From: Acidimicrobiaceae bacterium
Lineage (GTDB): Bacteria > Actinomycetota > Acidimicrobiia > Acidimicrobiales > Salinilacustritrichaceae
Direction of reading: 5' to 3'
Length of the DNA stretch: 10,788 nucleotides
Assembly: GCA_003476595.1 (NCBI GenBank)
Contig: DMTU01000223.1
Span: forward strand, 7,147-17,934
In this document: positions 3,332-5,931 of the stretch, piece by piece
Layout: every line of letters begins with the position of its first letter
Position numbering within the stretch: position 1 is the stretch's first letter
The notes under the pieces: model-generated
Told to the model about the DNA's origin: nothing
The model's input: only the letters and a program-made list of their open reading frames with translations
Database searches by the model: none
Made by a program: the position numbers and the translations under genes

Positions 3332-4663
3332 TCAGGGCAGCGGCTTCTCGAAGAACCGCTGCGCGTACGGGTTGTCGTTGTAGCGCTCGACCTCGACGTA
3401 CCCGGACCGCTCGTACAGGGCGATCGCCTCGGTGAGCTCCCCGTTGGTGTCCAGGCGCACGAGCCGGTGCCCGAGGGCGGCGCTGCGGGCCTCGAGCTCG
3501 GCGAGCAGCTTCCGGCCCAGGCCCTGGCCGCGGACGTCGCCGGCCACCCACATGCGCTTGATCTCCCCCATGTCGTCGCCGATGGTCTGGACGCCACCGC
3601 AGGCGACGACCCGATCACCCTGGCGGGCGAGCACGAACGCTCCGCCCGGCGGGGCGAGGGCAGCGTCGTCGCCGGTGCGGGCGTCGCCGGGGTCGAACCC
3701 GGTGGGGAAGCGAGCGTCGAGCTCGTCGAAGTAGGCGGCCATCGCAGCGCGGGCGTCGGCCGACTGCGGATCGACGACCTCGAAGCTCGCTGGGGACCGA
3801 TTCGTCGACGATTCGTCGCGACGAATCGCCGACGAATCGTCGCCCAGGGCCGCCAGCCGCTCCTCGGCCAGCTTCACCATCGGCACGAGGCGGTAGGGGT
3901 CGGGCCAGACGGCGGTGCGGATCCCGGCGGCGGCGATCGGCTCCGCGCACACGGGCCCGACGCACACCGGGAGCACGGCGCCGTCGTTGCAGGCGGCGAC
4001 GAGCCCGTCGAGGACACCCTCCTCGGCGGCGACCTCGAGCAGGAAGCGGACGGCGGGCTGGCTGGTGAAGGTGACGGCATCCACGTCGCGGCGGGCGATG
4101 CGGTGGGCCAGGTCGCGGACGGGGTCCTCGTCGTCGGGCCGGCGCCAGCGGTACACGGGCACCTCGGTGACCTGCGCGGCCATGGCCACCAGCTCGGCGG
4201 TGGAGGGGTGGTCCTCCGGGTCGAAGAGCTGGACGACGACGGACGCGCCGGCGATGGCGTCCTGCGCGCCCAGCCAGGCCACGACCTCGGGCATGGACTC
4301 GCCCGGCGCCCGCCACATCACGTCGAGGCCCCGCTGGCGACAGGCGGACTGCGCCTTCGGGCCCCGGGCGACGACCTTGCTCGTGCCGAGGGCGCGGATC
4401 AGCGGGTCACCGAGATCCCAGGCATCGGCGGCCTCGAACCAGAGGCGCATGCCGAACCCGGTGGTGGCCACCACCCAGTCGGGCGGGTCGGCGATGACGG
4501 CTTCGGTGGTGGCGCGCAGCGCGGCGTCGCCGGTGAGGTCGACCGTGTGGACCGTGGTGGCCACGACCACCTCGGCGCCGCGCTTGCGGAACAGCTCCGC
4601 CTGCTCCTCGGCACGGCGCTCCGCGGTCACGGCCACCGTGCGGCCGGTGAGATCGACCGCCAC
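3332..4663 (-). CDS. HemD-like (uroporphyrinogen-III synthase family) domain fused to GNAT acetyltransferase
   Basis: This 443-residue protein has two parts. Residues 5-272 form the bilobed HemD fold in its actinobacterial Rv0260c-like version: LTGRTVAVTAERRAEEQ, DPPDWVVATTGFGMRLWFEAADAWDLGD, VVARGPKAQSACRQRGL, VYRWRRPDDEDP, DAVTFTSQPAV and VCVGPVCAEPI. In mycobacterial relatives this domain is joined to a winged-helix DNA-binding domain; here residues 293-443 are instead a GNAT N-acetyltransferase, with motif A IKRMWVAGDVRGQGLGRKLL (acetyl-CoA loop 378-383) and ALYERSGYVEVERY near the end. The acceptor is unknown. True uroporphyrinogen-III synthase activity is uncertain, because this subfamily may be paralogous to the haem-pathway enzyme. 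Start is GTG at 4663, nine bases after the thioredoxin stop, with no strong Shine-Dalgarno, so translational coupling is likely. The linker (275-289) is encoded by a 42-bp palindrome. Last gene of a three-gene operon. Confidence 0.87.
   Translation of the reverse strand: MAVDLTGRTVAVTAERRAEEQAELFRKRGAEVVVATTVHTVDLTGDAALRATTEAVIADPPDWVVATTGFGMRLWFEAADAWDLGDPLIRALGTSKVVARGPKAQSACRQRGLDVMWRAPGESMPEVVAWLGAQDAIAGASVVVQLFDPEDHPSTAELVAMAAQVTEVPVYRWRRPDDEDPVRDLAHRIARRDVDAVTFTSQPAVRFLLEVAAEEGVLDGLVAACNDGAVLPVCVGPVCAEPIAAAGIRTAVWPDPYRLVPMVKLAEERLAALGDDSSAIRRDESSTNRSPASFEVVDPQSADARAAMAAYFDELDARFPTGFDPGDARTGDDAALAPPGGAFVLARQGDRVVACGGVQTIGDDMGEIKRMWVAGDVRGQGLGRKLLAELEARSAALGHRLVRLDTNGELTEAIALYERSGYVEVERYNDNPYAQRFFEKPLP
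3798..3839. repeat. 42-bp near-perfect palindrome encoding the interdomain linker
   Basis: The unit CGATTCGTCG occurs twice (3798-3807 and 3809-3818), followed directly by its inverted form CGACGAATCG twice (3819-3828 and 3830-3839). The two 21-base arms differ at one pair (A3808 against C3829). In the mRNA of the resident gene, which is minus-strand, that pair becomes U-G, so the whole arm can pair into an uninterrupted hairpin closed by a four-base turn. The element is exactly 14 codons long, keeps the frame, and encodes residues 275-289 between the HemD-like and GNAT domains. It is richer in A+T than its surroundings (ATT, AAT, GAT and GAA codons), which suggests an inserted repeat. I see no second copy in the window. 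Confidence 0.85.
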
Positions 4664-4672
4664 GGTCGGGTC

Positions 4673-5335
4673 TCAGCCCACCTGGGCGACGAAGTCCCGC
4701 AGCCCATCGAGGCCGAGGCCGCCGGCGTTGCGGTCGACGATGTTGCCGTCCCCGTCGACCAGCACCAGGTACGGGTAGGAGGTCAGCCCGAACGCGCTGG
4801 CCGCGGTGCCGTTCTCGTCGTCGAGCAGGACGCGACCGGTCCAGCCCTCGCGGTCGACCCACGGGCCGGGCGGGTAGTTGGGAGCGGACTCGTCGGTGCC
4901 GGTGAGGACCACGACGGCGTCGAGCTCGTCGAGGTCGCCCGACCCGGCCAGCTCCACCAGCTCGGGCAGCTCGGCCTGGCAGTGCGGGCACCAGTGGGCC
5001 ATGAAGGCGATCAGGGTCGGCTGGTCGAACCCGACGGCGGTGCCCTGGCCGGCCGGTGACACGCCCTCGAGCGTGGGCGCCGCCGTGCCGACGGCCGGGT
5101 CGTCGCCGCTCTCGGGCAGCGGCGGCAGCTGGGCGCCGGTGGCGGTGACGCCGGCGGTGGACAGCAGCTGGCCCCCGTCGACGCCGCCCTCCGCGCCGTC
5201 GTCCCCGCCGCTCGAGGCGAGCAGGGCGATGCCGACCGCCACGACGAGGATCACGCCGAGGACGATGAAGGGCGTGTAGGACCGGCGGGTGGCGACCGGC
5301 CCGCCCGGGCGCGGACGCTGCTTGGTGGTGCTCAT
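4673..5335 (-). CDS. Membrane-anchored thioredoxin-fold protein (TlpA/DsbE-like, CPHC)
   Basis: A 220-residue protein with a basic N-terminus, one transmembrane segment (about 22-41, TPFIVLGVILVVAVGIALLA), a Gly/Asp-rich spacer, and a thioredoxin-like domain from about residue 80. The active site is AHWCPHC (Cys116, Cys119), and the cis-proline loop SYPYL has Pro188. The domain should face the cell exterior. CPHC is the dipeptide of oxidising DsbA rather than the CxxC typical of cytoplasmic thioredoxin, so with the DsbB-like neighbour this is probably a disulfide-introducing or isomerising protein; a reducing TlpA role is the alternative. ATG 5335 follows GGAGGA at 5344-5349 and overlaps the DsbB stop by ATGA. 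An upstream extension of this frame is shadow of the DsbB gene. Confidence 0.9.
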   Translation of the reverse strand: MSTTKQRPRPGGPVATRRSYTPFIVLGVILVVAVGIALLASSGGDDGAEGGVDGGQLLSTAGVTATGAQLPPLPESGDDPAVGTAAPTLEGVSPAGQGTAVGFDQPTLIAFMAHWCPHCQAELPELVELAGSGDLDELDAVVVLTGTDESAPNYPPGPWVDREGWTGRVLLDDENGTAASAFGLTSYPYLVLVDGDGNIVDRNAGGLGLDGLRDFVAQVG

Positions 5336-5931
5336 GGGGTGGGTCCTCCGACGGGGGTGTTCGAGTGGAGATCGTAGGGGTGCGGCTCGTCGTCCCGGCC
5401 GCGGCGGTCCGTGCGGTCGACCAGTAGCGCCAGCCCGACGAGGACGAGGGTCACCGTGGCCAGCCGCGGGATCGTGAAGAAGCCGATGCCCTCGACCCAG
5501 CGCACGGTGCACGGCACGGCGGCGTCGCACGCACCGGTGTCGAGGTCCGGGAACGTCTCGATGGCCACGTGCCACAGGTTGACCACCAGGCCCAGGCCGA
5601 CGAGGACCAGCCCGGCGAGGCGGAGGTCCCGGCTGCCGCCTCGTCGCAGGGCGCGGATGCCGAGCACGACGACGAGCGGGTAGATGGCGATGCGCTGGTA
5701 CCAGCACAGCTCGCACGGGGGGAAGCCAGCCGACTCGGAGAACCACAGGCTCCCGCCCGTGGCGATGGCGGCGACGAGCCAGGCGCTGATCCGGCCGTGC
5801 TCGTCGACGAGCTCGCGCACCAGGTCGCGGGTCGGTCGGTGGGCGACAGCGGCGATGCCGGCGAGCACCACGCCGACCACAGCCATGGCGGCCATCGCGC
5901 CGAACACGTCGGCCACCTGGGTTGCGTCCAT
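5332..5931 (-). CDS. DsbB/BdbC-like disulfide bond formation protein
   Basis: A 199-residue integral membrane protein with about five hydrophobic segments (near 14-30, 48-64, 80-94, 106-122 and 152-171). It has the DsbB redox centres: PPCELCWYQR with Cys73 and Cys76 at the start of a helix, followed by the conserved arginine region, and a second pair Cys135/Cys141 in TGACDAAVPCTVRWVEGIGFFTIP. DsbB proteins reoxidise an extracytoplasmic thioredoxin-like oxidase and pass electrons to quinone; the partner is very likely the CPHC protein encoded directly downstream with an ATGA overlap. The extra N-terminal helix is unusual compared with four-helix DsbB. The start at ATG 5931 has GGAG about eight bases upstream; the frame remains open to 6222, but that extension antisenses the nitroreductase and carries no DsbB features. 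First gene of the operon. Confidence 0.92.
   Translation of the reverse strand: MDATQVADVFGAMAAMAVVGVVLAGIAAVAHRPTRDLVRELVDEHGRISAWLVAAIATGGSLWFSESAGFPPCELCWYQRIAIYPLVVVLGIRALRRGGSRDLRLAGLVLVGLGLVVNLWHVAIETFPDLDTGACDAAVPCTVRWVEGIGFFTIPRLATVTLVLVGLALLVDRTDRRGRDDEPHPYDLHSNTPVGGPTP

Follow-up and report, generated by a model that had tools for sequence, protein, structure and literature searches.

What does a HemD-like domain do when the domain joined to it is an acetyltransferase? The question is raised by one gene in the 10,788-nucleotide stretch of Acidimicrobiaceae DNA analysed here (the window), in which the first-pass annotation had seen a HemD-like domain and a GNAT acetyltransferase on one chain and had proposed a new arrangement with the former as sensor for the latter. 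In agreement with the claim of novelty, we found no description of a HemD-like and GNAT fusion in the literature searched. For the transcriptional regulator NnaR, the function of the HemD-like domain is posed as an open question in PMC11162112. In the window, an NnaR-type domain is attached to a predicted enzyme with an output that lends itself to in vitro assay, and what the HemD-like domain senses therefore becomes directly testable.

The fusion gene and its distribution

The gene lies at 3332..4663 on the reverse strand, as do all genes and domains placed below, and its 443 codons, beginning with GTG, form an open reading frame without internal stop. Both domains were matched within this single 443-aa ORF. 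The NnaR-type HemD-like domain (aa 4-274; 3842..4654) has a Pfam match to HEM4 (PF02602) at aa 21-262 of 97.8 bits (cut-off 27.5) and an NCBIfam match (NF005568/PRK07239, aa 4-274) of 272.5 bits (E 5.2e-81), which falls 0.5 bit below the whole-protein cut-off of 273. It is followed by a linker (aa 275-290; 3794..3841), of low model confidence and of varying length among fusions, and by the GNAT domain (aa 291-443; 3335..3793), with a Pfam match to Acetyltransf_1 (PF00583) at aa 312-422 of 59.7 bits (cut-off 20.7). The acetyl-CoA loop of the GNAT superfamily has the motif R/Q-x-x-G-x-G/A, and the window protein carries it as RGQGLG (aa 378-383; 3515..3532), so that predicted fold, Pfam match and loop all place this half in the superfamily. 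R378, G381, and G383 are invariant in 45/45 fusions, and the loop is intact, as had been read from the sequence. In an AlphaFold2 model of the fusion (mean pLDDT 92.7, pTM 0.72) the halves are predicted with high confidence to adopt a uroporphyrinogen-III synthase fold and a GNAT fold, respectively, while the pTM and the weak linker leave the mutual orientation of the two domains uncertain.

The fusion is a real conserved gene and no assembly accident. Both Pfam domains were found in 46 of the 120 best homologues (of 871), namely 45 full-length sequences (P0001-P0045, of which P0001 is the window's own protein) and the N-truncated P0097. The 45 are 63-100% identical to the window protein, have the HemD-like domain followed by GNAT throughout, as expected if the order is conserved, and align without rearrangement (19 of the 45, then all 45). 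A frameshift or assembly artefact was rejected because the fusion recurs with an open frame in all 45, the window's own among them, and is found in two genomes; the arrangement is accordingly neither unique to one assembly nor a pair of genes in all homologues. Nor do two adjacent genes appear to be the normal state, given that a search of 39 loci with HemD-like genes in relatives gave no match to the fusion's GNAT domain (E 1e-5). The second genome, Acidimicrobiia bacterium EGI L10123 (G002), encodes a fusion protein 91% identical to that of the window, and dN/dS between the two genes is 0.24 for the HemD-like half and 0.31 for the GNAT half (one pair, simple count). Purifying selection acts on both halves.

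The distribution of the fusion is narrow: of 397 genomes sampled from the order, two have it (the window's own and G002), and of 396 sampled from the phylum, one (the window's own). A second sample of the order gave G002 alone at a stricter cut-off, and a scan of genome contigs gave one locus. The gene neighbourhood is known from these two genomes, which are 80% (own) and 97% (G002) complete, the remaining fusions being metagenomic; of these, P0007, P0013-P0015, and P0036 lie on long contigs (22-256 kb). In a third member of the genus (G001) no fusion match was found; there, a HemD-like protein with a winged helix is encoded next to a NirB-like gene, and another contig has a relative of the GNAT half (58% identity). 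A quick tree was computed from 139 rows with SH-aLRT as the sole support measure, after removal of one short row, with P0053 treated as a fusion and P0097 omitted. In this tree the fusions fall inside a branch (SH-aLRT 99) from which winged-helix rows are absent, which suggests that the fusion branches within a lineage without winged helix. One fork, with a support of 84, unites the 46 fusion rows with 7 single-domain rows, and a tree in which the 46 fusion rows group exclusively was rejected (p-AU 0.0005), with P0046, P0047, P0049, P0050, and P0055 interspersed among them. A single origin of the fusion is consistent with this tree but not proven by it. The simplest reading is GNAT loss in a few members of the clade; repeated gain of GNAT is less simple but conceivable. 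In P0053 the GNAT half runs out of frame, and in P0050 and P0055 it is reduced to a stub; these may be output-domain losses or sequence errors.

Relatives of the two halves

NnaR (Rv0260c, MSMEG_0432, SCO2958, MAB_3520c), the HemD-like orphan response regulator of nitrate and nitrite assimilation, has an N-terminal domain of the same HemD-like subfamily as the fusion, a likeness for which the residue signature was compared on the order's winged-helix relatives. In NnaR this domain is followed by an OmpR-type winged helix, whereas in the fusion GNAT takes its place; and while NnaR is linked to nitrite assimilation genes, no nitrite reductase was found near the fusion in 19 kb of its own contig or in a 17-kb stretch of G002. 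The closest relatives of the HemD-like half, with up to 77% identity among the best 120 of 871 matches, are stand-alone Acidimicrobiia HemD-like proteins, which unlike the fusion have no second domain and some of which are encoded directly before a siroheme reductase. Among 39 HemD-like loci of relatives (tblastn, E 1e-5), a winged helix follows the domain in 20 (confirmed by Pfam as Trans_reg_C at L075) and nothing follows it in 19, and these are the two states that had been given for known proteins with this domain.

The predicted fold of the HemD-like half is that of canonical uroporphyrinogen-III synthase (HemD; 1wcx, 3d8n, 1jr2), from which the fusion differs in that several conserved positions are replaced and a separate canonical gene is present in the genome. 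T68, W75, R100, K103, Q145, P254, and R258 occur in 45/45 fusions and in 0/8 canonical HemD proteins of the same order, none of which has any of them; because the canonical proteins are shorter, the positions were matched through an alignment with gaps. Among relatives, the same residues are kept by 18-19 of the 19 that lack a winged helix and by 18-20 of the 20 that have one, where the two missing P254 and R258 are partial sequences with gaps at these positions. Cys239 (codon at 3947..3949) is likewise present in 45/45 fusions and 19/19 relatives without winged helix, in 15/20 winged-helix relatives (the others having three Ser and two gaps), and in all 73 stand-alone HemD-like proteins among the matches listed. 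At this position 8/8 canonical HemD proteins of the order have Thr, as do the Thermus thermophilus HemD enzymes in the alignment, and this Thr is, we assume, an active-site residue of the human enzyme. Common to the fusion and 8/8 canonical HemD proteins are Y171, T200, and G236. Cys234, from the same CVGPVC stretch as Cys239, is shared with 7/8 canonical HemD proteins. When the model is used as a guide, conserved positions of the HemD-like half are enriched at the five residues after predicted strand ends (35/55 against 98/268 overall, P = 4e-6), as are strictly invariant ones (11/23, P = 0.002), in a test chosen after the model had been seen; these sites are where the interdomain cleft would lie.

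The first-pass annotation had asked whether the genome has a separate canonical hemD, and it does, on contig 345 (PF02602, 204 bits). Beyond this gene and the fusion, no HemD-like protein was found in the own genome (80% complete) or in G002 (97%). The HemD domain of Streptomyces coelicolor NnaR is reported as inactive in two papers citing Streptomyces work (PMC6277429, PMC11162112). Because of this relative and of the canonical hemD in the genome, the HemD-like half of the fusion is probably no longer an enzyme that makes uroporphyrinogen III.

The neighbours of HemD-like genes in relatives point to the tetrapyrrole branch or to nitrite and sulfite. A siroheme reductase gene lies near the HemD-like gene in 24/39 loci, as judged with reductase queries taken from three of the loci compared and with the sulfite or nitrite kind assigned by resemblance; NIR_SIR was confirmed by Pfam for L064 and several further places. 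In 18/20 winged-helix loci the reductase gene, putatively of the nitrite reductase kind, is 182-5752 bases away. In 6/19 loci without winged helix it follows directly in the same orientation, at a distance of 57-284 bases, and these six loci span three genera (L060 and L068; L062, L063, and L064; L066). The stand-alone gene directly before a siroheme reductase, apparently of the sulfite reductase kind, would link the HemD-like domain to sulfate assimilation, a link of which no description was found in the literature searched. For the other 13/19 loci without winged helix, no siroheme reductase was found in the fetched stretch; in two of them (L067, L131) the contig ends within 461 bases, and the other 11 have none. 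An Rrf2 regulator gene precedes the stand-alone HemD-like gene in L060 and L068, and L065 adjoins ORFs that by eye resemble hemA and hemC. Beside the fusion itself there was no siroheme reductase, CysG-like, or Rrf2 match (19-kb own contig, 17-kb G002 stretch); a single NIR_SIR gene is present in each of the two genomes, away from the fusion and beside an ORF that by eye is cysH-like.

Relatives of the GNAT half were sought with aa 288-443 as query among proteins of 244-775 residues, which gave 2719 matches, of which 120 were listed: 42 of these fusions and 78 others. All of the 78 listed non-HemD chains have MarR-type domains (77) except for one with PF02668; shorter stand-alone GNATs, which lie outside the length range searched, exist in the order (e.g., a 162-aa ORF in L078). 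The MarR-GNAT proteins (bifunctional helix-turn-helix transcriptional regulator/GNAT) share the GNAT subfamily of the fusion, with 58-66% identity among the matches listed, and differ from it in their N-terminal MarR winged helix, for which the window protein has no match, having the HemD-like domain instead. Two less usual chains were seen: P0194 (448 aa), in which the same GNAT subfamily is joined to PF02668, and P0156 (454 aa), in which it occurs with MarR_2 and is joined to PF14542. Since relatives of both halves are often joined to DNA-binding domains (winged helix for the HemD-like half, MarR among the GNAT matches listed), each half seems to have exchanged a DNA-binding partner for the other.

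A proposed ligand-gated acetyltransferase and its alternatives

Effector-type domains joined to GNAT in one chain are known. The class I-beta regulated protein acetyltransferases described in PMC6434083 are of this kind, their GNAT domain being controlled by cAMP (MtPat/MsPat), NADP (MxKat), or amino acids (the ACT-GNAT AAPatA). We liken the fusion to these by architecture without claiming membership; its sensor fold would be HemD-like and its regulatory role is deduced. For the NnaR HemD domain, it has been suggested that hydroxymethylbilane (HMB) or uroporphyrinogen III is sensed (PMC11162112). A ligand-gated acetyltransferase would account for the fusion most economically, with ligand, acceptor, and coupling all conjectural. 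The HemD-like half would no longer make uroporphyrinogen III, while its cleft would still hold hydroxymethylbilane, uroporphyrinogen III, or a near product. Closing of the cleft might then alter how accessible or how active the GNAT half is, and this half would use acetyl-CoA and pass the acetyl group to a protein amine or a small amine. The signal that NnaR elsewhere turns into transcription through its winged helix would here be delivered as acetylation.

We tentatively favor the core of this mechanism, binding of a siroheme-branch tetrapyrrole precursor by the HemD-like half and control of GNAT acetyl transfer by that binding. The full account, a retired heme-pathway enzyme turned acetyltransferase sensor that reads a siroheme-branch tetrapyrrole, acetylates a target, and bypasses transcription, is somewhat unlikely. 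Support for a tetrapyrrole sensor comes from the conserved residues, the relatives near siroheme reductase genes, the NnaR reports, and the analogous sensor-GNAT chains. The proposal that a HemD-like domain acts as sensor for the acetyltransferase is plausible, and the residue signature and the relatives' gene neighbours lend it support. Counted against it are the absence of siroheme reductase, CysG-like, and Rrf2 matches beside the fusion in both genomes, the 13/19 relatives without winged helix whose fetched stretch had no siroheme reductase, the uncertain domain orientation, the variable linker, and the gapped alignment of canonical HemD. If a tetrapyrrole does gate acetylation, it would be a new class of effector beside the known cAMP, NADP, and amino acids (PMC6434083), and through the fusion the NnaR signal would gain another output besides transcription.

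The absence of a siroheme or CysG-like match beside the fusion gene, together with conserved residues that differ from those of canonical HemD (Cys239 for Thr, R100/K103/R258), would also suit a HemD-like half that senses a small molecule other than a tetrapyrrole, such as a sulfur or nitrogen metabolite, in a reused cleft, with GNAT responding; we consider this unlikely, as the 24/39 loci of relatives near a siroheme reductase point to the tetrapyrrole branch or to nitrite/sulfite. Alternatively, the halves may have been joined for convenience, a constitutive GNAT being carried by a HemD-like scaffold, dimerisation module, or targeting part. A linker of widely varying length, which for some fusions includes the translation of a repeat, the pTM of 0.72 with a low-confidence linker, and the presence in the same genus (G001) of the GNAT relative not joined to HemD are all compatible with such a protein. 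We judge it rather unlikely, however, in view of conservation near the predicted HemD cleft that exceeds the needs of a scaffold, and of a GNAT subfamily that is habitually fused to regulator domains (MarR-type in 77/78 non-HemD chains among the matches listed). That the HemD-like half is instead a working uroporphyrinogen-III synthase in a bifunctional protein would agree with its PF02602 match above the cut-off, with the Y171, T200, and G236 that it shares with 8/8 canonical HemD proteins, and with the name uroporphyrinogen-III synthase given to several members by JGI. This is highly improbable for a genome that already has a canonical hemD and a protein in which seven positions and Cys239 differ from 8/8 canonical HemD proteins, besides the inactivity reported for Streptomyces NnaR (PMC6277429, PMC11162112).

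The tetrapyrrole-gated reading had originally been extended by a possible redox input from a disulfide-forming pair of genes located upstream, and this part of the proposal found no support. The pair consists of a DsbB-like membrane protein (5332..5931, with an inner ATG start assumed; PF02600, 49.1 bits) and a TlpA/redoxin-like thiol protein with a CPHC motif (4673..5335; PF08534, 35.4 bits; PF00578, 34.5 bits). The two genes and the fusion are codirectional, with 9 bases between the TlpA stop and the fusion start, and G002 has DsbB, TlpA, and the fusion in the same order and with this 9-base spacing. Of 10 genomes searched for TlpA, 5 had matches. In the DsbB/TlpA stretches fetched from three relatives (G001, G342, and G054; G342 has a second, weaker TlpA match outside the comparison), the pair occurs with no HemD or GNAT match, which rules out redox input as a conserved link; because the pair stands without the fusion in these relatives, its association with the fusion gene is either recent or incidental. 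The site of action of DsbB and of TlpA-like proteins is the membrane or the space outside it. The fusion starts within the HemD-like fold and has no leader that could be seen by eye, and it is therefore taken as cytoplasmic. The TlpA neighbour is probably not part of the mechanism, and the chance that the pair supplies redox input to the fusion appears very small.

The linker and a dispersed palindrome

In the AlphaFold2 model the confidence within the linker falls below a pLDDT of 50 at aa 281-285. By eye, some fusions have hardly any linker and others one of close to 30 residues, a variation as compatible with a loose connection of the halves as with their tight coupling. In the window the linker contains the translation of a palindrome with 29-nt arms (3790..3847; inverted repeat, 86% complementary), a copy of a dispersed palindromic repeat with the core CGATTCGTCGACGAATCG, often with GGGC...GCCC ends, and this copy is read in frame. 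Linkers of the palindrome type, rich in Ser, Thr, Asn, and Arg, were seen by eye in 15/45 fusions, and many divergent fusions have short linkers without the palindrome. The repeat is ruled out as the cause of the fusion by these divergent members, and therefore it probably entered after the fusion had arisen.

With up to 2 mismatches to the pattern, related copies of the palindrome were found at six other sites in the own genome (G000 C54, C80, C162, and C242) and at six in G002 (C21, C22, C24, and C27), and a backward control gave none. G001 has three weaker copies. A simple ORF caller places 7 of these 12 sites outside its ORFs and 5 inside.
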